Of a stretch of DNA of 42,002 nt, positions 28,575 through 40,915 are shown piece after piece (positions within the stretch are counted from its first letter, which is position 1; each line of letters starts with the position of its first letter). Under the pieces are notes generated by a model, which worked only from the letters and a program-made list of their open reading frames with translations, was not told the DNA's origin and did not search any database. The DNA comes from Minisyncoccota bacterium (GTDB lineage Bacteria > Patescibacteriota > Minisyncoccia > Minisyncoccales > GWA2-38-27): positions 84,038 to 126,039 of the forward strand of contig JAQTZP010000002.1 of assembly GCA_028687715.1 (NCBI GenBank). Reading direction: 5' to 3'. A program made the translations under genes and the position numbers.

Positions 28575-31500
28575 TTAGCTCGGGTTGGTAAAGAGACCAG
28601 CAATTACGTCTCCACGGAGAATAATATTGCCGAGGTTGAAGGAATTGCTTGAAGTAACTCCATCAATACCCCAATCAATGTTGTTTCCGCTGTTACCGTC
28701 GTCTAACCAAAGCTGAAGGAAGTCTCCATCACTATTAAAATCGGTACTAGTATCACAAGAAATTGAAATGGTCTTTGTACCTCCTGCTGGCACACTTAAT
28801 CCAGCAGCGTATTCGCTGAAGTCAAACGTTACATATGTGCTCATCAGATTAGTACTGTTTGAAGCAGCAGCATAGGCAGTATCTAATACATTATTCGCAT
28901 CATCTTTCAAAGTAAATGCCATTTGCTGGGTTGTAGTATCAGCCATATAGGCACTGATTTCGACTCTCAAACTATTTCCATCAGAATCCTTAAAGGTGAC
29001 GTTTTCTGTACTTTCAGCTCTGATATCGAATTTAGCTAAAGCACTTGCATATGGAAGAACACCCGAAGAAGGACTTGTGCTGTTAAGCGTAACATAAGGT
29101 CTGGTCTTGTAAATGTACATGGTATTACCCATGGCATTATCATCAGATGTGATTGATTGACCTGATGCAAGCCCTGTAGCTTGAACATTGCTTGAACCTT
29201 CAAGTCCTACCTTTATTGAACCGTTATTGGAAACCAAGCTTCCATCAACTGCCTGGGTATCAGCTTTTACAGTAAGAATTTTATTGCCGTCAGCTGGAAT
29301 AGTCAAGGTTCCGTCAGCAAGCACCCAAGTAATTGAAGGACCGCCAGGAGCTGAATCTAAGAGTGTACTTCCATCGTAGAAGTATACTGTGCTTAGGTAG
29401 TTGCCTCCTGTGACATGGACCAAAATCTGGTCTACATCAAGGTTTTCAACATTGTTGGCAGCTAATCTGAAAGCGCCCAATGTTACTCCAGTCTTGCTTC
29501 CAATCACAATATCAGAGATTGGGGTAGAAGCGTCAATGCTAACTGTCAAGGTACCATTTGCTACAGCACTGATTGTCTGCATGGCATCAGTAGTATAAGT
29601 TACAGTAGCAGTACTGCCGGTTGAGTCTCCATTAGCTGTTACACCGTCTGTAGTTATCTTGAAGGTATGATTTCCTATACCACCTCCAGAATTAAGGTCA
29701 GCAACTAAAGCAATTTTTCTGAATGTTCCTGCTGGAATAGTTAATGTCGGACTGATTGTAAATGCCTGAGTAGCAGTTGAGGCTGCCCATTGATAAGTTG
29801 AACTTATCTTTGTCTCGTAAATATCGCCTCGCGAGCTGTTGGCTGAAGTTAAATCAGCCCAAATCTCCGCATTATCAATATCCGCATTAGCTGCGCTGCC
29901 TCCCAAGGATTCAGTAATGGTGATTGAAGTTACCTGAATGCCTTCACCAGCTGAACTGGCATCTAAAGAGAAAGTAGCAAAGACAAAGTCATTGGTTCCC
30001 TTAGGAATGCTTCTTGATGCTGGGGTAGGAAGAGTGGTGGCAACTAAAGATGCTCCGGCAATTGTCAAAGTGTTACCGTTGACATTGCTTGAAGCAGGAG
30101 TGACAGTAATAGTGTTATTGCTGATCATTCCTGTAGCGGTAACATCCCCTGTTGTTATCCTTGCATATAATGAATTTCCAGTGTCAGCACTGTCTGCGAT
30201 ATTGGCTTTAACCGTATATTTATGAGTTCCTACTGGAACTATAAAGGTATCGGTTAAAGTAGAATAAGGAGAACTGGCAGCAGTGGGATCCATTGGTCCA
30301 GCAACTATTGTTCCATTTTCATCGTATAAAGAAATTCTTGTTACATCATTGTTAGTCAAGTAAGAACTGACAATAGTAACTTTAACCTGGGTAATCTTTG
30401 CCTCTTCACCTTTTGCTTCAAAATCAAACACTGCCAAAGTTACATCTGAACCAGCTGAAATATTTCCAGTAGCTGGAGTGGCTGATGATTTAGAAATGTT
30501 AAGCGAACCGTTCTGAATTGTCTGGTCTGAAGCACCTTTACCATTGTCACCATTGGTCCAGCTAGCAGTTCCGTTTGTAGGTGTTATATAGAATCCATAT
30601 GTATTACCTTTTACGGTAATTAAAACATCGGTTCCATCAATCAAGTCAGCGTTAACAGTCTTAGAACTGCCTGCGCCGTTGATTATATCCACCATTACTT
30701 TAAACCTAATAGTTTTTCCTTTGGCAACCTGTAAATTAAGGTTTGACCAGCTTGCCTTGTCAAAAGTATCCCAAGAAGCAACAGTGCCTAAGCTTACTCC
30801 ATTAGTAACATCATAAAGTTCGATATTGTTAACGTCAGTAATAGCAGCGCTTCCAGTTCTTTTAACTGTGATTGATTCAATTGTAACGTTTTCAGTAGAA
30901 CCAGCTGTGGCTTTAAACTGATTAACAATTACATCAGTATCTCCGACATCTGGCGCTGAATCAGCTACAGTTCCATCTTCATAAACAGTTAAAGATCCAA
31001 TCGTTAGAGAAACAACTGACATAGCGTTTCCTACGACTGGGAAGCTTCCAGTTACTGCTGAAGCATTAGACGTAATGTCGCTAGCAGCACTTATTCCAAA
31101 AGCTGCGGTTTTTCCAGCAGTGGCTGTGCTGATGACTCCAGCCCTGATGTAATAACTCTTTGATGTCCCTTTAGTAATTACCAAAGAAGGAACAAAAGTT
31201 ATCATTGCTCTGCTGTCAACATTCAGACTGCCAATGCTTCCTTTATAAACTCCAGTTTCCACATCAACAATCTTAATGTTCTGCAGATCTGAATCTGCTG
31301 AAAGTCCGCTTCTGGTTACATAAATCCTTGAAATACTTACATCAGCCTCAGGACCAGCAGTCAAGGTAAACTTTGTAAAGTTTCCATTAGCTCCGGTGGC
31401 AATTGTCCCAGCAGCAGGAGTATCAGAAGCTAAAACAACTGTTAAACCAGCAGCTGAAGGCGTAGTAGGAGTAGTAGGCTCGGTAGGGGTAGTAGGAGTA

Positions 31501-31991
31501 GTAGGAGTTCCTGAAGTCAAAACAGCATTTAATTTAGTCCTTGTTGAAGGACCAACATAGCCGGTGCCAGCAGTTAATCCCACTGGAGTTAAAATATCAG
31601 AAGCATATTTTTCCTGATACTTTACAGCAGCTGTTTTGGTCAAAGGACCAAAATATGTTGTCTCATTGCCTAATGAGCCAGGGCCTGAAGCAGCAACCTG
31701 GGTATCGGATGCTGTGTTGAATATTGCTTGTAAGCATTTAACATCATTTCCGCTGGAACCTACTGTTAGGTTGCGAGTAAATGTTACTCCAACGCAAGCA
31801 GCAGGAACTGTACCACTTACAGGACTGCCTCCTTGAAGCGCAGCCAGCTGATTCTGCAAAGTTGACAAGGTAGCCAACAAACTATTGATTTGAGCTTGAA
31901 GCTCTTCTGCAGTAACAGCCTGGGCTGTCTGAGGACCGCTCATCATTACGGCAACGGCAAACATTGTTGCAATCGCAATAATTTTTTTCAT
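28575..31991 (-). CDS. Secreted surface protein: peptidoglycan-binding-like head plus six beta-sandwich modules (S-layer-like)
   Basis: The 1138-residue protein starts with a signal peptide (cleavage likely after A25, QTAQA). A short coiled-coil stretch (EELQAQINSLLATLSTLQNQL, 29-49) follows, then a peptidoglycan-binding-like domain at ~64-158 (C66, DVKCLQ with C86, FGPLTKTAAVKYQ, GYVGPSTRTKLN). A Thr-Pro linker spans 161-179. The rest is a series of about six related beta-sandwich modules beginning near 182, 325, 494, 645, 811 and 963. Each opens with LxV--S--P-----I--G and contains F---A---E-V-I--I-V and a closing K---V-AD-like strand. The chain is Ser/Thr/Asn-rich, with only three cysteines and no C-terminal anchor or sorting motif. 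It has its own promoter and terminator. An S-layer or fibre-like surface protein, possibly glycosylated by the neighbouring system, is the inferred role. Confidence 0.85.
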   Translation of the reverse strand: MKKIIAIATMFAVAVMMSGPQTAQAVTAEELQAQINSLLATLSTLQNQLAALQGGSPVSGTVPAACVGVTFTRNLTVGSSGNDVKCLQAIFNTASDTQVAASGPGSLGNETTYFGPLTKTAAVKYQEKYASDILTPVGLTAGTGYVGPSTRTKLNAVLTSGTPTTPTTPTEPTTPTTPSAAGLTVVLASDTPAAGTIATGANGNFTKFTLTAGPEADVSISRIYVTRSGLSADSDLQNIKIVDVETGVYKGSIGSLNVDSRAMITFVPSLVITKGTSKSYYIRAGVISTATAGKTAAFGISAASDITSNASAVTGSFPVVGNAMSVVSLTIGSLTVYEDGTVADSAPDVGDTDVIVNQFKATAGSTENVTIESITVKRTGSAAITDVNNIELYDVTNGVSLGTVASWDTFDKASWSNLNLQVAKGKTIRFKVMVDIINGAGSSKTVNADLIDGTDVLITVKGNTYGFYITPTNGTASWTNGDNGKGASDQTIQNGSLNISKSSATPATGNISAGSDVTLAVFDFEAKGEEAKITQVKVTIVSSYLTNNDVTRISLYDENGTIVAGPMDPTAASSPYSTLTDTFIVPVGTHKYTVKANIADSADTGNSLYARITTGDVTATGMISNNTITVTPASSNVNGNTLTIAGASLVATTLPTPASRSIPKGTNDFVFATFSLDASSAGEGIQVTSITITESLGGSAANADIDNAEIWADLTSANSSRGDIYETKISSTYQWAASTATQAFTISPTLTIPAGTFRKIALVADLNSGGGIGNHTFKITTDGVTANGDSTGSTATVTYTTDAMQTISAVANGTLTVSIDASTPISDIVIGSKTGVTLGAFRLAANNVENLDVDQILVHVTGGNYLSTVYFYDGSTLLDSAPGGPSITWVLADGTLTIPADGNKILTVKADTQAVDGSLVSNNGSIKVGLEGSSNVQATGLASGQSITSDDNAMGNTMYIYKTRPYVTLNSTSPSSGVLPYASALAKFDIRAESTENVTFKDSDGNSLRVEISAYMADTTTQQMAFTLKDDANNVLDTAYAAASNSTNLMSTYVTFDFSEYAAGLSVPAGGTKTISISCDTSTDFNSDGDFLQLWLDDGNSGNNIDWGIDGVTSSNSFNLGNIILRGDVIAGLFTNPS
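31461..31509 (-). repeat. Low-complexity coding repeat for the Thr-Pro linker
   Basis: Plus-strand GTAGGAGTAGTAGG-type triplet and hexamer repeats fill this stretch and encode the TPTTPT-like linker between the peptidoglycan-binding-like domain and the first beta-sandwich. Such runs can change length by slippage. The linker is also a plausible O-glycosylation site. Confidence 0.7.
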
Positions 31992-32018
31992 TGTGTTTTT
32001 TATCTTTTTAATTTAATA

Positions 32019-32051
32019 ATCGACTTTTTAAATTTAATAACTATTATCGAC
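32019..32051 (-). repeat. Direct repeat with GTCGAT core in the surface-protein leader
   Basis: On the minus strand GTCGAT (32051-32046) and GTCGAT (32024-32019) are each followed by an AT-rich stretch containing TTAAATT and a run of A, with starts 27 bases apart. They lie between the predicted transcription start and the ATG, so they could be an operator or an element of the mRNA leader affecting stability of an abundant message. Confidence 0.45.
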
Positions 32052-32065
32052 CTTTTGGTTTTATG

Positions 32066-32094
32066 ATTATAAAATATTTTCAATACTCTCTAAA
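32066..32094 (-). promoter_or_regulatory. Predicted promoter of the surface-protein gene
   Basis: Minus strand TTTAGA (32094-32089), 17-base spacer, perfect TATAAT (32071-32066). The start would be near 32059, leaving a leader of about 68 bases. The -35 matches consensus at 4 of 6 positions. Confidence 0.6.
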
Positions 32095-32247
32095 TTATTA
32101 GAGATGGTACCAAACAATCATATGACCAAAAATAATAGTCATTTAAAATCTCTTTCGGCATCATTTTCATGAGGCCTCAAAGATGATTTTTAAAATAATT
32201 ATTCTATTATGATTTAAAAATGCTTATGATGTCAATCTGTGGAAAAC

Positions 32248-33000
32248 TTACTGATTATTAAGCCAAACCACTAAAGCATCTGTATATTTTTCTTCCGAGT
32301 AGTTTTCTTTCATCTCTTTGAGCATTTTCTGTTGTTTTTCAGTTAAATCCTTAGATTCTAATTCCATAATCTCCCTTTCTACAAGCTGAGCCAAAGCATC
32401 ATCTAATTCTTTGGTTTCTCCGATAATCACTCCCAAGCTTTCTATTTTCTGCTTATTTTCTTCAAGCTTTTTAACCTCCTGGGCAATTCTCTTTATATTA
32501 TCCTTTTTTGCAATTTCCTCTGTTTTTAAATCCTTTGCCACTGACAAGACGCTAGATTTATATTCACTAATCGCAGGAGCCAAGTTTTTAACCGAATTAA
32601 CCTCAGCAGCTTTAGCTAAATCTTCAAGTCTTTTATTCGCTGTTTCAAGGCCTAAAACCGAATAATCCTTGCCAGAAACAAAGACTGTTCTGACATCCTG
32701 GCTGAATTTTTTAGCTGGATAAAGAAAGTCTCCTGGCAAAGCCTTATCTAAAGCATTTACAGCAGTAAATATAAAAACTGCTATCAATGCCATAGAAAAA
32801 GCGTATTTGTGATGGAATATCATTCTTAATCCTTTGGTAAAATTGCTTATTCCAAATACAAAAAGCCGATCCTTGCTTGTTTCGGCTCTATAATCAAATT
32901 TATCGCTTAAAATCCTGTTTTTAGCTGATAAAACCCATTCATTTCTAGGTTTTATTCGGCTAAGCTTCTTGACTTCATTTATAACTTGATATTCCTGCAT
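32248..33000 (-). CDS. Single-pass membrane protein with DUF5667-like domain, putative anti-sigma factor
   Basis: The 250-residue protein has a cytoplasmic N-terminus of ~65 basic residues (VINEVKKLSRIKPRNEWVLSAKNRIL), one membrane helix (YAFSMALIAVFIFTAVNAL, about 66-85) and an extracytoplasmic part. That part begins ALPGDFLYPAKKFSQDVRTVF and continues as long charged helices with coiled-coil character (LETANKRLEDLAKAAE, VKKLEENKQKIESLG). The ALPGD-LYP-K segment is the DUF5667 signature. Proteins of this layout are usually encoded just after an ECF sigma factor, as here (66-base gap), and are thought to hold the sigma factor at the membrane. No zinc-finger anti-sigma (HxxxCxxC) motif is present, so the anti-sigma role rests on layout and neighbourhood. 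Confidence 0.72.
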   Translation of the reverse strand: MQEYQVINEVKKLSRIKPRNEWVLSAKNRILSDKFDYRAETSKDRLFVFGISNFTKGLRMIFHHKYAFSMALIAVFIFTAVNALDKALPGDFLYPAKKFSQDVRTVFVSGKDYSVLGLETANKRLEDLAKAAEVNSVKNLAPAISEYKSSVLSVAKDLKTEEIAKKDNIKRIAQEVKKLEENKQKIESLGVIIGETKELDDALAQLVEREIMELESKDLTEKQQKMLKEMKENYSEEKYTDALVVWLNNQ

Positions 33001-33066: not shown

Positions 33067-33588
33067 CTATATCGGTTCCGCTTTCTGGCTTTTTTCAAGC
33101 TCTTTTTTTAAGGATTTTAAAGCCCTTGAAAGCATTACCCTGACAGCGCCCTCTGATTTATGAATTAAGCCTGAAATCTCTGGGATTGAAAGTTCATCAA
33201 GATAGTGCCAGATAATAACATTCTGATAATCATCATTTATATTTGTCAAAGCTATTCTAATCTTATCAAAATCAGAGTTTAAAAGGGCTTTTTCTTCTAA
33301 ATCAGTATCTGGGTCGCTTACTGGCAGATAATCAGCTGAAATAATCTGGGCTTTTCCTTTTTCCCTGTAATAATCAGTAACTAAATTTCTGGCAACTTGG
33401 TATAAAAAGGCTTTAATATTTGAAATTCTCTGCGGGTTTTCTTTAAAGATTTTCCAGCATCTTGTAAAAGTTTCAGAGGTTAAATCTTCTGTAATGTCCT
33501 GATAATTTACTTTAATAAAAATAAACCTGTAGATTTTTTCTACATTATCATCGTATATTTTGCTGAAGTCTTCTTGGGGGTTATTCAT
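33067..33588 (-). CDS. ECF-type RNA polymerase sigma-70 factor
   Basis: The 173-residue protein has only the two essential sigma regions. Region 2 (~10-75) includes YDDNVEKIYRFIFIKV, DLTSETFTRCWKIF and IKAFLYQVARNLVTDYYR, which reads the -10 element and melts DNA. Region 4 (~110-162) includes LPVS-D linker residues before it, then YQNVIIWHYLDELSIPEISGLIHKSEGAVRVMLSRALKSL, a helix-turn-helix for the -35. Length and layout are those of an ECF factor. It is encoded directly before the DUF5667-type membrane protein, its likely regulator. No Shine-Dalgarno sequence is visible; the bases upstream of the ATG are occupied by a copy of the TGTCCTAT word followed by TATAAA-like sequence. Target promoters are unknown. 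Confidence 0.93.
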   Translation of the reverse strand: MNNPQEDFSKIYDDNVEKIYRFIFIKVNYQDITEDLTSETFTRCWKIFKENPQRISNIKAFLYQVARNLVTDYYREKGKAQIISADYLPVSDPDTDLEEKALLNSDFDKIRIALTNINDDYQNVIIWHYLDELSIPEISGLIHKSEGAVRVMLSRALKSLKKELEKSQKAEPI

Positions 33589-33594
33589 TGTTTT

Positions 33595-33753
33595 TATAGG
33601 ACATAGGTCATATTATTATAACCGATATATTATTGTCCTATATCTGATATCAGAATATAGTTAATACAATTATTTTAAATAATTATTACTAGGACAAATA
33701 AATAGGACATTATAATCATATTTCTGTCCTATCAAACTAAAATTATGTCCTAT
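33595..33753. promoter_or_regulatory. Cluster of six TGTCCTAT/ATAGGACA words upstream of the sigma-factor gene
   Basis: Plus-strand TAGGACA occurs at 33597, 33690 and 33703, and the reverse TGTCCTA at 33634, 33725 and 33746; several copies extend to the full 8-mer. They make inverted pairs: 33595-33603 with 33634-33642 is a perfect 9-bp match, and the other four nest as two arms. A near-copy, TAGGTCA, follows the first at 33604. The last copy overlaps the end of the winged-helix gene. This is far denser than chance and looks like a multi-site operator controlling the sigma gene. Confidence 0.65.
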
Positions 33754-34396
33754 CTAATTTCAACTTATAAAATGTTTCATTTTTCTCTCCAACTCTTTCA
33801 ATTAATCCTTTTTTTAATAAATCTACAAAATCTCTTCTTAGAGTCCTTTTAGAAACCTGTGGAAAAACCTTGCTTACCTCCCAAACCTGAATTCTTTGTC
33901 TTTGCTTTAAAATCTCTATAATCTTCCCTTTTCTCTTATCCAAACTATTTCCTTCCACTTCCTTTTCTCTCTCAATAAAATCTTTATTATTTAAATCCAA
34001 AGGAGCTGTTTTATCAAAAGATGATTCTAATTCATCTAACAAAGACTTTCTGGCTGTTAAAGCTTCTTCTTTTATCCCGCTGTATTCTTCTTCTATATCC
34101 AAGATATCGAAATAACTTACCCAATTCTGCCATTTAGCTATTGAGAAATAGGCTAAAATTATCTCTATATCGCTTTCCAGCAAAAAAAACAGCTCTTCTT
34201 TTTTCCTGATTAAAACTTGATTAGACTCCTCTTTAATAATAAAATGATTATTTTTAAAATTATCAAGATTAATTATATCATGCAAAATATCATTAGCTGA
34301 TTCCCTTATCTTATAGCGCAAAGGCTCTTTTTTAGGAAAAAGAACAGTTAATCGGTAAATTTTATTGGTAAGTTGAACGATTTTTTGCTTTTCCAC
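33743..34396 (-). CDS. Winged-helix (DeoR-like) transcriptional regulator with an N-terminal helical domain
   Basis: The 217-residue protein has a C-terminal winged helix (~160-212): GKIIEILKQRQRIQVWEVSKVFPQVSKRTLRRDFVDLLKKGLIERVGEKNETFYKL. This is the DeoR-type arrangement with SKRTLRRD as the recognition helix and RVG-KNETF as the wing. Residues 1-120 look like a helical bundle (LTNKIYRLTVLFPKKEPLRYKIRESANDILHDI), rich in charged and aromatic residues, which could sense a ligand or form dimers. The start is a GTG at 34396; no ATG occurs early in the frame. It lies immediately upstream of the sigma gene, and the TGTCCTAT word array begins at its stop, so it is the first candidate for the protein binding that array. 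Family beyond DeoR-like HTH is not recognised. Confidence 0.68.
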   Translation of the reverse strand: MEKQKIVQLTNKIYRLTVLFPKKEPLRYKIRESANDILHDIINLDNFKNNHFIIKEESNQVLIRKKEELFFLLESDIEIILAYFSIAKWQNWVSYFDILDIEEEYSGIKEEALTARKSLLDELESSFDKTAPLDLNNKDFIEREKEVEGNSLDKRKGKIIEILKQRQRIQVWEVSKVFPQVSKRTLRRDFVDLLKKGLIERVGEKNETFYKLKLDRT

Positions 34397-35535: not shown

Positions 35536-36264
35536 CTATTCCTTCAAATAGGTTAGGATTTTTTGTTCAAGGATTCCTTTAAAATTTCGTAGATGCATAG
35601 TATGGCTATACGGTAAAAACTCCCTTAATTCTGAACGCAAATCTATTCTTGTTTCTTTTAATAACTTAAGCGCTTTCTCCAAGTTATCTTTTTCTTTAAC
35701 TATTGGGTAATTACCAGACAGTAAAAAGAAATAGTCATAAAAATCTCTTGGTTTATAACGCTTAAAAAGCGCCTCTAGTTTTTCCCTGATAATATCTTCT
35801 TTAGAAAGGTGAATAAGAATGTAAGCAAGAATATAATCGTTCTCAATTAACGTTCTGACTATTTCCGGTTTTTTCCCGTTTCTTAATGAAATTTCAATAT
35901 GAACAGAAATTGTTTTTTTGTAAGCGTGGAATTTTATGATTCCAATATATCCGCCAGTAGTATTTTTAGCTTCCTCTAATTCAACGTCAATACCTGTTTT
36001 CTCTAAATCCAGTAAAGTATTTGTGAAGATTTCTTCAACCTCTGATTGTTTAATATTGGTACCGGTAAAATCTAAGTCTTCAGAATAACGAGGACTACGA
36101 AAGATAATTCGTAAGGCGGTACCTCCTTTAAATAGCAGTTTCTCAGCTCCTGGTTGTTTGTATAAACAAGATAAAAAAAGATGCTGGCAATATTCCCTGA
36201 TAATATTCTGAATAGATGTTTGAGCCTGATCAGTAAACTTTTCTAGGTTTTTTATATTCAGCAT
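35536..36264 (-). CDS. abiEii: AbiEii/AbiGii-family nucleotidyltransferase toxin
   Basis: About 242 residues from the ATG at 36264 (a TTG at 36276 is also in frame). The nucleotidyltransferase signature is intact: LLFKGGTALRIIF at ~43-55 (GG-T motif) and YSEDLDF at ~60-66 (the D-x-D metal-binding aspartates). The C-terminal IIREKLEALFKRYKPRDFYDYFFL has the conserved lysine/arginine and RD-YD residues of the family. AbiEii enzymes act as toxins of type IV toxin-antitoxin systems, and related enzymes add nucleotides to tRNA ends; the substrate here is not known. The gene overlaps the antitoxin gene by 35 bases, the usual coupled arrangement with antitoxin first. All catalytic residues I can identify are present, so the toxin appears functional. 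Confidence 0.88.
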   Translation of the reverse strand: MLNIKNLEKFTDQAQTSIQNIIREYCQHLFLSCLYKQPGAEKLLFKGGTALRIIFRSPRYSEDLDFTGTNIKQSEVEEIFTNTLLDLEKTGIDVELEEAKNTTGGYIGIIKFHAYKKTISVHIEISLRNGKKPEIVRTLIENDYILAYILIHLSKEDIIREKLEALFKRYKPRDFYDYFFLLSGNYPIVKEKDNLEKALKLLKETRIDLRSELREFLPYSHTMHLRNFKGILEQKILTYLKE

Positions 36265-36856
36265 ATATTTGATCAACTAATTTAAACATACTTTCATGTT
36301 TAAATAGCTTTACAAACTTAATAAGCTCATCTTTTTTGATTTTTTTTAACTCAAGCCTATCACTTAAAGATACTTTTTTGAGATCAACGAAGTATAAATA
36401 GTCTGCCAAGGCTTTTTCTGGTTCAGCAATTAAAACATTATCATTGTCAATTAATTTCAAGCCATATCCGGTGAATGCTTCTTTCTTAATTTTCTGATAT
36501 ATTAAACTGCCCTTAGGGGTATTAAATTCCCGAGACGCTTTAGTGGTTATTGAAGTTACAGCATAAACTACTTCAGGAATAATACCATAGTGCGATAAAG
36601 CCGTATTTAAAGAAACATAAGAAGGCTCATAAAGCTTATTGGCAATTAGATAAAGAGCTGGATTTGAATCTGATATCATATAAAAACCGCTTCTCAATTT
36701 TAAAAACAAACCGCTCTTAATATTCCTTTTAATAAATGCTGAAGCAGTATTGGGCGAAACGCCAAAAATATTCCGAAATTCAATCGGGCTAAAAATAGAG
36801 ATTCCCATTAATTTAAGTTTTTTTTCAACGTTAATACGATTTAGTTTTTGTATCAT
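36230..36856 (-). CDS. abiEi: AbiEi-type antitoxin/transcriptional repressor
   Basis: About 208 residues from the ATG at 36856; a TTG at 36865 lies in a TTGTACAA palindrome and is less likely. The N-terminal winged helix (~15-65) reads FSPIEFRNIFGVSPNTASAFIKRNIKSGLFLKLRSGFYMI. It is followed by the AbiEi core PSYVSLNTALSHYGIIPEVVYAVTSIT and a C-terminal domain with LIAEPEKALADYLYF. AbiEi neutralises its partner without direct binding in the studied systems and represses its own operon through inverted repeats. A near-consensus promoter lies immediately upstream (36886-36914), and the TTGTACAA palindrome at 36858-36865 falls between it and the start, a plausible part of the operator. Confidence 0.85.
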   Translation of the reverse strand: MIQKLNRINVEKKLKLMGISIFSPIEFRNIFGVSPNTASAFIKRNIKSGLFLKLRSGFYMISDSNPALYLIANKLYEPSYVSLNTALSHYGIIPEVVYAVTSITTKASREFNTPKGSLIYQKIKKEAFTGYGLKLIDNDNVLIAEPEKALADYLYFVDLKKVSLSDRLELKKIKKDELIKFVKLFKHESMFKLVDQIYAEYKKPRKVY

Positions 36857-36885
36857 ATTGTACAAAAAATGAAATAACTTATTCC

Positions 36886-36914
36886 AGTATATTCGAGGAG
36901 GTTAAAAAAGTCAA
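36886..36914 (-). promoter_or_regulatory. Near-consensus sigma-70 promoter of the abiE pair
   Basis: Minus strand TTGACT (36914-36909), 17-base spacer, TATACT (36891-36886), each 5/6 to consensus. The -35 overlaps the TGA stop of the upstream 1334-residue gene. Transcription would start near 36879, about 23 bases above the antitoxin ATG, with the palindrome TTGTACAA (36858-36865) in the leader. Confidence 0.75.
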
Positions 36915-39900
36915 TGTTTTATTATTATATACATCTTCTTTGCACCTGAAATAAATACGCTGCCATCTCCATTTAGAGCAACAGGACCTATTCTGTTGTC
37001 TTCAAGATTAATAGAGTGTTTCTCAACGCCTTTTGAATTAATAACTTTAAGTTTATTGTTAAATATTCCATAAATCAACTCGTCATTATCAATTGTTAGA
37101 AAATAATTTATACCCTCATAACCCAAGTTAAGAGGCCAATTAGATAAACTGCTGCCGTCTGGATTAAAACCAAATAGTTTAGTTATCCAAGAACCTGCGG
37201 GCGAATATCCGCCTGAAAAATAAATATTGCCGCTTGAAGAAACGGATATTGGACTAGAACCGAAAAACTTATCGCATAATTCAGGCCATTTCTCATCTTG
37301 GGTATCTGGATCAAGCGCATGAAGGCAGTTTTTCCAGCCTCCGTCTGTTAACGTCTGCCACTCTTTTTCCCTTCCAATTATTACATAAATCGTCCCGTCT
37401 AAACCTATGGTTGGAACTCCTACTAAAGAGTCTTTAGTTTCAGAACCATCAAGACGAATAGCCGGAAATTCTTTTCTCCATTTCTCGCTGCCGTCAGATG
37501 AAACAGCATAAAGAATATTATTAACTCCAAAATAAATAATATCATTTTGGGCAATTGTCGGAGGAAAATTTCCAGCACCTATTCTTGATCCTATTTCATA
37601 GCTCCAAATCATTTCTCCATTTAAAGAGTTTAAAGCAATCAAACTGGAACTATCCAAGCTGTCTGCAAAAAGATAAATTCTGTTATCTTTAAAATTAGGA
37701 TAAAGACGAGGGGTAAAATCAGAATAAACTTTTTCCCATCTAACCTTTCCTTCCCTATCAAGCGCTATTATCTTTTTATCAGAACAGGTATTAAAGATAT
37801 AAATTAGGTCATTGTCTAAACCTGCAACATACAAACAATGCAGAGCACCTTCAAAAAACCATTTCTTATAACCCTTTTGGTTAAAGGAATAAATTCCTTG
37901 TTTATCGTTAATCCGCGCTGAAAAATATAAATTAGAGTTTGAATCTATAAAGGGATTATAGAAGTAATCATTACTCTTTCCGCCGATAAATATCTCAGGC
38001 TTTGGATCCAAAGAATCTTTTAAACCGGTAAAAGGACTATTTAAATGGTTTTGACTATCATGTAAAAAAGCAGGCCAGGGATGTTCATTGTGAGAAGAAG
38101 GGATAAAATCTTCATTTTTTGAATTCAAGGGGCTGACTAAACCTGATTCAAAATCGCTCTTATTATTATCGGTATCCTGATAACCTTGTCCTTCTTTATT
38201 TATCTCCCTCTGTAAACTTTCACCCTCCTGCGGCAAATCAGCTGCTTCTTTTTCTTTTACGTTTATTCCTCCCCAGCCAACAGCGTCAATTCTCCCTAAA
38301 TTAGCTTCTTCTATTGTTTTATCTTCAGGGTCCCAAGGAAAAACAGCTACTGCCCCTAAATCGTTATTTAATTGGGCGTTTGAGTACGGCTGCCAGTCAG
38401 AATTAGGATTGCCATCTAGGACTGGATATCCTTTTAAACCTATAAGGTAATAGCTTTTTTTATTGATTATTGTGTTATCTGAAAACTTCTTTTTTCTCCA
38501 AGGATTATTCCAATCCCTATCAGAGGAAAAGTAAGAAAGATAGCAGTTTGAAACATTAATATCCTGTTCTCCGTAATTGTATAGTTCGATAAATTCGTCG
38601 TCTTTCAGCAGGATTTCAGTAATTATCAATGTTTTATCAATGCTGATTTCAATTAAAAAACCAGACTCTGGGAGCCAATCGCTTTCATTGCCAGCAATAT
38701 CTTTCGCTTTTATCTGAAAATAATATCCTTTTTCATCTAAACCAATAAATTCTTTATCGCCCAGATACGTTACCGGTCCGTCCTGAACTTCTTGGTATTC
38801 AAATTCAGTCCAGCTTTCATTATCTTTTTCTCTCCATCTCAAAGAAAATCCCGAAATGCCCGATGGCGTCTCAAATTCTCTAACGCCTTCTTTTATCTCA
38901 AAAGTTATATTAAATGTCAAAGAATCAGATGATGAAGAAAAATTAAAGAATGCTGTTGGAAAAGCACTATCCTCTTTACTTTCTTCAATAAAAGGCTGGC
39001 TATTTTCTGCTTTAGGCGTTCCCATTATAGAAAATTCTCCAAGGCCGGTATAACTATGCCAGGATAAATCTAAACCCCTCTCCATTGAGAGTTTCTCTTC
39101 TTTATCACCAGCAGGCCATTCTGGTTCAGCTGCTGTCTCATCTTCTAACCGGCATTCATTACCAAAAAGATAAAGAGCTTCATTTGAATCATTTAAAGCC
39201 CCGGTATATATAAAATTGGCGGGTGCTATTGGAACAGAATTATCATCTGTTCTTTCTAAAAGGTAAAAACCATTTGGGGCTATAACGTCGTTTTCACCAA
39301 AAACTATCTTTATCTGTTTTTCCCTATCAAGCAGCTGCCAGCCTGAAAGAGAAATAGGATTATCAGTAATATTTTTAAGCTCTATCCATTCATCACTTGA
39401 AGATTCTTCTGTTCCCATCCAAGAAACTTCATTAATCACCACTTTATCTCTGAAAGCTTGGTTTTGCTGGCTTTTCTCGCAATAACTTATTTCTTGTTTT
39501 GACCCGCCGCCGGTATATTTTTTGGTGGTTTTTGACTTTTGGCTTGATTCCTGATTTAAAACAATCTGATTATTTTGTTCCTCTTTATTATCTTCAATAT
39601 AGTCGTCTTTATCATCTTCATTTTCTTCATCGCTTTCTATGCTTAATTCTATGACAGATTCTTCTTCATTAGCTTCCTTAAAAGATAGGGAAGTTTCTAT
39701 CGTGTTTTCAGCCATTTGACCAAGTTTCTGGCTTAATATGTCAATTTTCTCAGAAATATCATCTACTATCTCTTGAGCTTTCTCTAAATTGAAAGAATCT
39801 TGTTCTTTATCTTGATAACCATATTCTGTATTTATAATCTCCTGTCTAAGATCAGCTGATTTATCAGTTATTTGTTCTATATCTTTAAAAACTATATTAT

Positions 39901-40915
39901 CAAAATTAATTTTAGCTAAATCTATCTCTGTTTCTTTGAGAACAGAATCAAAAGAAACTTGAGCCTTAAAAAGAGCTAAATTTTTGAAAATAGAGCCTAA
40001 TTTATTTAGAATATCATTAGTTTTTGCTCCAAAGATTTTAAGATTTTTTTTGCCGATATCCAATATCTGCTCTATTAAAGAAAAAGGCTCTTCTAATTTT
40101 TCTTTAATCTTAGAAGTAATTTTTTCAAAAAAAGTTAATTCTTTATACTCAACTTCTGGAACAGGCTCGTCAAATATAATGTCTATTGAGTAGGGCTTCT
40201 GCCAGCTGTAGCCGCCGCCCTCCCCTTTTATTGTTTTCCCCTTAATTCGGATTATAAAAGGAGGCAAGCTCTTTTTATTTAATCTCTGCCATTCCTCCTG
40301 GCTCCAATAAGTGCCGTACATTGTATAGGCCCCATTAGAATTAGGAGGATAAATTTCTTTTGGGGAATGAAACTCAATAGAAACATCTGCTTCTTTTTCA
40401 CTATTAGGATGATAAACAATATTATAGCCGATAATCGGCTTTTCTTCTGTTCCTTTATATGATTTATATGAATAATTGCTTAAAACACCTGAAGCTATTT
40501 TTATTTCTTTTTGAAGAAACCAGTCTTTTGCTATCTCAACCGCCTTCTTAACAGATTCTTTTTCTATTTCTTCTATTATAGTTTTAACCCCTTCATCTCC
40601 TAATGATAAGGCAAGAAGCAGTCCTGATTTTTTAACAAGAAGCAAGAGAATTTCCTGAGGCATTTCTACCATTGCGTAATTCCAACCCTCTTTTTCAAGC
40701 GCTTTTTTAATCAAAAGAGAGGCTATTTGTTTTTCTAAATCTGAAATATTATCCGTTATAAGGAGGTCTAAATACTTCTGGCTTACCACTTGTTGTCTTG
40801 CAGAACCCAATAAAAGCTGAATATCATTATTTTTTAATTCAACCTCAGAGAGGGCAATATTTGGTATAAAAAGAAAAAATATGCCTAAAGCAATAAAAAT
40901 TAAGCTCTTTTTCAT
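36911..40915 (-). CDS. Large secreted protein: two lamin-tail domains, a fibronectin-like domain and a C-terminal beta-propeller
   Basis: The 1334-residue protein has a signal peptide (cleavage likely after ALS, residue 23). A helical N-terminal region reaches ~145, a beta-rich part follows to ~255, and a long helical segment (~265-410) leads to an acidic Glu/Asp/Asn linker (~415-470). A first lamin-tail domain occupies ~490-635 (VVINEVSWMG, DEWIELKN, ISLSGWQLLD, FYLLER). A fibronectin-like sandwich occupies ~650-755 (GFSLRWRE, YYFQIKAKD) and a second lamin-tail domain ~763-925 (LIITEILL, DEFIELYN). A PQQ-type beta-propeller fills ~945-1334, with blades such as IIALDREGKVRWEKVY, LIALNSLNGEMIWSYEI and LYAVSSDGSEKWRKEF. 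No catalytic motif or membrane anchor is seen. It is probably a cell-surface or envelope binding protein. Its start lies 44 bases below the preceding gene. Confidence 0.82.
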   Translation of the reverse strand: MKKSLIFIALGIFFLFIPNIALSEVELKNNDIQLLLGSARQQVVSQKYLDLLITDNISDLEKQIASLLIKKALEKEGWNYAMVEMPQEILLLLVKKSGLLLALSLGDEGVKTIIEEIEKESVKKAVEIAKDWFLQKEIKIASGVLSNYSYKSYKGTEEKPIIGYNIVYHPNSEKEADVSIEFHSPKEIYPPNSNGAYTMYGTYWSQEEWQRLNKKSLPPFIIRIKGKTIKGEGGGYSWQKPYSIDIIFDEPVPEVEYKELTFFEKITSKIKEKLEEPFSLIEQILDIGKKNLKIFGAKTNDILNKLGSIFKNLALFKAQVSFDSVLKETEIDLAKINFDNIVFKDIEQITDKSADLRQEIINTEYGYQDKEQDSFNLEKAQEIVDDISEKIDILSQKLGQMAENTIETSLSFKEANEEESVIELSIESDEENEDDKDDYIEDNKEEQNNQIVLNQESSQKSKTTKKYTGGGSKQEISYCEKSQQNQAFRDKVVINEVSWMGTEESSSDEWIELKNITDNPISLSGWQLLDREKQIKIVFGENDVIAPNGFYLLERTDDNSVPIAPANFIYTGALNDSNEALYLFGNECRLEDETAAEPEWPAGDKEEKLSMERGLDLSWHSYTGLGEFSIMGTPKAENSQPFIEESKEDSAFPTAFFNFSSSSDSLTFNITFEIKEGVREFETPSGISGFSLRWREKDNESWTEFEYQEVQDGPVTYLGDKEFIGLDEKGYYFQIKAKDIAGNESDWLPESGFLIEISIDKTLIITEILLKDDEFIELYNYGEQDINVSNCYLSYFSSDRDWNNPWRKKKFSDNTIINKKSYYLIGLKGYPVLDGNPNSDWQPYSNAQLNNDLGAVAVFPWDPEDKTIEEANLGRIDAVGWGGINVKEKEAADLPQEGESLQREINKEGQGYQDTDNNKSDFESGLVSPLNSKNEDFIPSSHNEHPWPAFLHDSQNHLNSPFTGLKDSLDPKPEIFIGGKSNDYFYNPFIDSNSNLYFSARINDKQGIYSFNQKGYKKWFFEGALHCLYVAGLDNDLIYIFNTCSDKKIIALDREGKVRWEKVYSDFTPRLYPNFKDNRIYLFADSLDSSSLIALNSLNGEMIWSYEIGSRIGAGNFPPTIAQNDIIYFGVNNILYAVSSDGSEKWRKEFPAIRLDGSETKDSLVGVPTIGLDGTIYVIIGREKEWQTLTDGGWKNCLHALDPDTQDEKWPELCDKFFGSSPISVSSSGNIYFSGGYSPAGSWITKLFGFNPDGSSLSNWPLNLGYEGINYFLTIDNDELIYGIFNNKLKVINSKGVEKHSINLEDNRIGPVALNGDGSVFISGAKKMYIIIKH

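Follow-up and report, generated by a model that had tools for sequence, protein, structure and literature searches.

Repeated-word operators are usual for regulators of the DeoR/GlpR type, and operators made of repeated half-sites are already known. DeoR/GlpR repressors (PF08220) carry a helix-turn-helix (HTH) at the N terminus and a sugar-phosphate-sensing domain at the C terminus. The S23/bAvd-like proteins, among them XCC0516, BT_0352 and Avd of diversity-generating retroelements, stand alone. In ECF sigma/membrane anti-sigma operons with an extra regulator, a sigma factor with regions 2 and 4 is followed by a single-pass membrane protein.

The locus studied here resembles each of these systems in part. 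Its regulator has a winged helix that matches HTH_DeoR, but the HTH is C-terminal, and an S23/bAvd-like bundle takes the place of the sugar-phosphate-sensing domain. With its domains in reverse order and no sensor domain, the protein is not a DeoR-family regulator in the usual sense. Its residues 3-128 share their predicted fold with the S23/bAvd-like proteins, whereas here a linker joins the bundle to a DNA-binding domain. The genes that follow resemble those of an ECF sigma/anti-sigma operon, except that the partner of the sigma factor is a DUF5667 protein without an anti-sigma domain match. In addition, a dedicated regulator heads the operon, and its putative operator lies behind its own gene.

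Results

Six copies of one word are clustered between a regulator gene and a sigma factor gene

The window (the whole 42-kb stretch of DNA that was analysed) contains the following features, listed by position.

28575..31991, minus strand: gene for a giant secreted surface protein of 1138 aa, S-layer-like with a PG_binding_1-like N-terminus; probable output of the module
32248..33000, minus strand: DUF5667 membrane protein gene; probable anti-sigma factor, judged by topology and gene order
33067..33588, minus strand: ECF sigma factor gene, with sigma regions 2 and 4; proposed main target
33596..33603, minus strand: array word 1, TGTCCTAT (ATAGGACA on the plus strand); the word closest to the sigma start codon
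33604..33610, no strand assigned: near-copy TAGGTCA
33634..33641, plus strand: array word 2, TGTCCTAT; pairs with word 1 as a 9-bp inverted pair
33690..33696, minus strand: array word 3, TGTCCTA
33702..33709, minus strand: array word 4, TGTCCTAT; 13 bp from word 3
33725..33732, plus strand: array word 5, TGTCCTAT
33746..33753, plus strand: array word 6, TGTCCTAT; 21 bp from word 5
33743..34396, minus strand: regulator gene, 217 aa; proposed binder of the array, from helix/word covariation

An exact word count located six copies of TGTCCTA/TAGGACA in the window, all within 157 bp (33597-33752), and five of the six extend to the 8-mer. A preliminary description of this DNA had reported six words plus a near-copy within 160 bases, confined to one spot in the window, and this was confirmed. 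The 13- and 21-base spacings and the perfect 9-bp inverted pair (TATAGGACA/TGTCCTATA, at 33595-33603 and 33634-33642) were likewise found as claimed. The same description placed the cluster between the winged-helix and sigma genes. The order stands, with the correction that the genes lie on the minus strand and that word 6 overlaps the last codons of the regulator gene (coding ..DRT-stop). Read in the direction of transcription, along the minus strand, the array comes after the regulator gene and ahead of the sigma gene.

In a search over all 7-mers, the commonest one reached six copies per 160 bp in the window. When the window was dinucleotide-shuffled 60 times, no 7-mer exceeded three copies per 160 bp in 58 shuffles or four in the other two. 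The 700-kb, nine-contig genome is that of a Patescibacterium of the Parcubacteria/Paceibacteria type, as it shares a genome family with loci recorded as Candidatus Nealsonbacteria. Across this genome, TGTCCTAT occurs 24 times, compared with 26 for the reversed control. Because the word is thus at background frequency genome-wide, the signal is the clustering and not the word itself, and the high density is special to the cluster. A second cluster in the genome (C2:153272-153389, L250) is located at the 3' end of a GreA-like gene and has three TGTCCTA words.

The gene order is conserved across much of the class

The sigma factor matches PF04542 (1.1e-8), PF08281 (4.1e-10) and TIGR02937 (4.3e-24, above the cut-off), and it has regions 2 and 4 without region 3, as expected of an ECF sigma factor. 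The DUF5667 protein has a short cytosolic N-terminus, a single membrane helix and a helical outer domain. Searches of this protein for an anti-sigma domain or an anti-sigma structural match found none; topology and gene order make it a probable anti-sigma factor.

The order regulator, sigma, DUF5667, surface protein is conserved across much of the class. The regulator was found in 47 of 60 relatives and is present in 179 of 247 genomes of the order and 252 of 384 genomes of the class; outside the class, matches were mostly to its winged HTH (wHTH) part only. In the closest 102 distinct loci, the sigma gene comes next in 98 and the DUF5667 gene after that in 84. In a class-wide sample of 223 distinct loci, sigma lies directly downstream of the regulator in 150, followed by DUF5667 in 129. 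Of the 59 loci whose sequence extends far enough, 50 have a giant surface-protein gene after DUF5667. Among class members that lack the sigma gene, many have the regulator gene directly ahead of a surface-protein gene or a sugar-nucleotide transferase-like gene.

Other genes of the window were also annotated. An AbiEii-like nucleotidyltransferase gene (PF08843, 2.2e-24) is preceded by a gene that weakly matches AbiEi-like antitoxins (35536-36865), and the two are probably a type IV toxin-antitoxin pair. The region 36911-40915 encodes a secreted protein of 1334 aa that has lamin-tail domains and a PQQ-like propeller. In about 29 relatives, similar large proteins are encoded upstream of the regulator.

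Arrays recur in relatives and are spaced like sites on duplex DNA

Word density was determined for the 78 relatives that have a canonical recognition helix and whose regulator-sigma gap is non-negative, using the same loci outside the gap as flank. The gaps hold 217 canonical words in 9.0 kb and the flanks 82 in 328 kb, showing a 96-fold higher density in the gap; at least two canonical words are present in 65 of the 78 relatives. The gap contains at least two TAGGACA/TGTCCTA words in 91 of 131 loci whose regulators have R184, R187 and R188. The remaining loci have them upstream of the regulator (2) or between sigma and DUF5667 (2), have a single site (14) or have none (22), and most of these last 22 bear a variant word. 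Canonical-helix relatives without an array are L037, L050, L054, L070, L100 and L361. The array lies upstream of the regulator in L046 and L080, where the genes touch, and behind sigma in L053 and L380. At 76 of 118 loci, the array begins so close to the regulator gene that its first word overlaps or adjoins the stop codon. In a number of sigma-less loci (L178, L185, L191, L195, L212 and others), no obvious array was seen between regulator and surface gene; this region often has a single TTATCCACA, which is DnaA-box-like, upstream of TATAAT.

The words are arranged with preferred spacings. Of 60 relative genomes, 32 have at least one TAGGACA...TGTCCTA pair within 30 bp; the reversed control yields very few. 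Spacing between same-strand neighbours peaks at 11 and 21 bp, with fewer near 32 and 42, and 82 same-strand pairs give a vector length of 0.72 at a period of 10.5 bp, uncorrected for shared ancestry. For divergent pairs the peaks are at 10 and 23-25 bp, again uncorrected for shared ancestry. Judged from sequence, spacing of 11 and 21 bp is the signature expected for protein sites that share one face of the DNA duplex.

This geometry bears on the folded RNA switch suggested in the preliminary description, in which the words would pair in the leader of the sigma mRNA. The window leader does fold well (z -5.0), the mean z over 101 loci is -2.3, and the divergent order prevails among pairs (53 -+ vs 11 +-). 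However, 24 of 112 arrays are of a single orientation, with up to 16 copies, and such arrays cannot pair; because of them, we regard the strong fold in the window as a by-product of mixed orientation, and not as the property under conservation. The phasing of the words to the DNA helical repeat, the array's occasional position upstream of the regulator gene and the way in which the words track a DNA-recognition helix (see below) also speak against a switch. A search of Rfam gave no match, and the orientations of the 112 arrays do not fit a conserved base-paired riboswitch or leader. An RNA switch is thus highly improbable.

The words follow the recognition helix of the regulator

The words differ between loci where the recognition helix of the regulator differs. 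Over sigma-linked loci, we counted residue 187 against the base N in NGACA. R187 goes with G in 474 of 524 words (131 loci), L187 with C in 8 of 14 (4 loci) and E187 with A in 10 of 12 (3 loci). Q187 goes with T (13) or C (7) in 21 words from 4 loci, and T was found with S187 (8 of 8 words) and I187 (3 of 3), each at 1 locus. Before GGACA, K183 goes with A in 309 of 357 words (112 loci), while P183 goes with T (56) or C (12) in 69 words (7 loci) and S183 with T (15) or C (14) in 30 words (6 loci). Residues 183 and 187 are both inside the recognition helix of the structural model (helix 183-195). A code of one residue was considered and rejected: K184/Q187 goes with GGACA and R184/Q187 with T/C-GACA, so residue 184 is part of the code too. 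Many K184/Q187 loci have no array at all.

To compare the recognition helix with other parts of the proteins, word sharing was correlated with distance, given N-domain distance. The partial r was -0.47 for the recognition helix and -0.26 to -0.35 for other wHTH parts. When pairs with distant N-domains were considered, the word was shared in 77% of those with the same helix residues and in 16% of those with different ones. In a joint regression over 116 loci, beta was -0.214 for the recognition helix, -0.096 for the other wHTH parts and 0.007 for the N-domain. Trees built from the sigma factor and from the N-domain of the regulator show between 5 and 8 independent helix changes. The word shifts with the helix in most of these changes and the opposite way in none; well-supported branches hold one change only, and since the independent changes are few and just one has a well-supported branch, they carry no formal phylogenetic significance.

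Under autoregulation, the words would be promoter elements that the neighbouring ECF sigma factor reads together with RNA polymerase. The sigma gene does follow the regulator and array region in 150 of the 223 distinct loci. Yet which word is present does not depend on sigma regions 2 and 4, whose betas in the same regression are about 0.01 (0.011 and 0.012), and related regulators without a sigma gene still have arrays (e.g., L166, L174, L193, L215 and L239). The two orientations and varying spacing of the words are also unlike a -35/-10 pair, and we consider such autoregulation barely credible. Because the words follow the recognition helix of the neighbouring winged-helix protein and not the DNA-binding regions of sigma, we take that protein to be the binder. 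The array is very probably an operator bound by the regulator next to it.

The regulator is predicted to join an S23/bAvd-like bundle to a winged helix

In an AlphaFold model of the regulator (mean pLDDT 89), residues 3-128 form a four-helix domain and residues 154-212 a winged helix with the recognition helix SKRTLRRDF (182-190); the linker between them (129-153) is weakly predicted. HTH_DeoR (PF08220) matches the window protein at 4.5e-9 and all 68 of 68 aligned members, and the HTH sits at residues 155-202 of 217. The best solved match of the bundle is XCC0516 (2gsc), with a TM score normalised to the target of 0.76-0.81, followed by the S23-family protein BT_0352 (2rld) with 0.71-0.78; both have a Foldseek probability of 1.00, at E-values of 0.0045 and above. 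The predicted structure places the bundle in the fold of the S23/bAvd-like family. At the sequence level, the bAvd family PF22296 matches 12 of 68 members (best 3.1e-6), and the window protein scores 13.5 bits, far under the cut-off of 40.

The crystals of both relatives contain five chains (2gsc, five chains; 2rld, chains A-E). By analogy with these solved relatives, the regulator is probably multivalent, a pentamer with flexible DNA-binding arms, and multivalency would suit an array as loose as this one.

The wHTH also resembles the archaeal centromere protein AspA, and the home array is the main one in its genome. Both observations would suit a regulator-array pair that serves as a centromere or nucleoid-organising site and merely lies beside the sigma gene. 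Among the listed neighbour genes, however, no ParA-like partner was recognised; the partners are sigma, DUF5667, sugar-nucleotide transferase-like or surface-protein genes. Clusters also precede other exported-protein genes (L247, L304, L312 and L313). A partition role is therefore very unlikely.

Position of the array and direction of the proposed control

Control of the sigma gene by the array is suggested by its conserved position, and repression is our default guess for the direction of the effect. A sigma-70 promoter inside the gap was considered and rejected, since -10 elements in the gap were not enriched over shuffles. TTGACT, a sigma-70 -35 element, is present in 10 gaps, so some gaps may have internal promoters. 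Without -10 enrichment, the array may act by promoter occlusion, by activation or by elongation block.

The regulator might accordingly bind the array but activate the sigma operon, or a filled array might block elongation between co-transcribed genes. The lack of -10 enrichment agrees with this, and so do gaps as short as 27 bp (L038), which leave scant room for a promoter, and arrays located upstream of the regulator or behind sigma in the four loci named above. The 10 gaps with TTGACT argue in the other direction. We regard activation or elongation block as possible, although less likely than not.

Clusters away from the home locus and the leader of the surface gene

Word clusters outside the home locus exceed controls. 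A defined regulon was nevertheless rejected, as the recurrent non-home clusters look like coding coincidence and the rest are too few. TAGGACA...TGTCCTA lies inside the tRNA nucleotidyltransferase gene in six relatives (L246, L260, L268, L294, L299 and L301), several of them with the same 9-bp spacing. Because a conserved RTxxRCP stretch is encoded there, these pairs are probably a coding coincidence. Other clusters lie before or near genes for exported proteins, a SipW-like signal peptidase and a TasA-like protein (L247, L278, L304, L312 and L313). Non-home clusters near exported-protein genes may possibly represent a small surface regulon.

The leader between DUF5667 and the surface gene (31992-32247, minus strand) is strongly conserved, with AGGTCG in 47 of 87 leaders where 2 are expected. 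Several relatives have in it a 10-bp stem capped by an invariant TTACGTAAG-type loop (CTCGTGGCTATTACGTAAGGCCGCGAG), with GGTCGACGCGAC after it; these leader observations come from the window and from L060, L070, L076, L087, L088, L089, L091 and L102. AAGGTCG...GTCG was considered as an ECF promoter before the surface gene and was rejected, since its spacing is inconstant and it looks like a structured leader. No Rfam family matches the surface-gene leader, which by its sequence is a candidate structured 5' leader RNA.

Discussion

Sequence statistics support the array itself, its conservation, the gene order and the agreement between words and recognition helix. We consider it likely, with some confidence, that the TGTCCTA array serves the adjoining winged-helix regulator as a multi-half-site operator, with sigma as the target. 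The undescribed multi-site operator proposed in the preliminary description is well supported in this respect, as the words follow the recognition helix of the regulator and not the DNA-binding regions of sigma.

From these observations we infer physical binding, assembly of a pentamer, regulation of sigma and a cascade to the surface protein, which could proceed as follows. Each word would be one half-site, read in the major groove by SKRTLRRDF; in TAGGACA, K183 would go with the A before GGACA and R187 with the first G. The S23/bAvd-like bundle at the N terminus would assemble several subunits, most likely five by analogy, and the long linkers would let the wHTH arms take words of either orientation near one and two helical turns apart. 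The regulator, made from its own promoter, would fill the array behind its own gene, and array occupancy would set expression of the ECF sigma-DUF5667 pair. The sigma factor would then probably drive the adjacent giant surface protein.

A wider reading may extend to the class. The regulators would form a class-wide, multivalent and probably pentameric family, each gene having a matched array at its 3' end. Helix and array would have diverged together into word types such as TAGGACA, GTATGACA, GCGACA, TAGACA, CGGCAA, GCGGTAA, GTGCAA, AGTTCGGAA and others, and the family would act as a master switch of the surface layer with or without a sigma gene between. We put this forward tentatively, as somewhat short of an even chance.

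A literature search, in which coverage of subscription journals was thin, found no description of the motif, the regulator architecture or the module. What is new is how the domains are combined, where the putative operator lies, after the gene of its own regulator, and the way in which helix and array have diverged as pairs throughout the class.

Patescibacteria are mostly uncultivated, and their gene regulation is scarcely known. This work yields a candidate regulator, its operator and a residue-to-base code that can be read from more than 100 natural pairs, with an ECF sigma system beside a giant surface protein as the likely output. The many word variants suggest mutually orthogonal regulator-operator pairs. 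If the proposal is true, one could test how loosely spaced half-sites are used by a multivalent regulator and how natural operators change in step with DNA-binding specificity. The same would apply to control of the surface in these cells, which is relevant to host contact.
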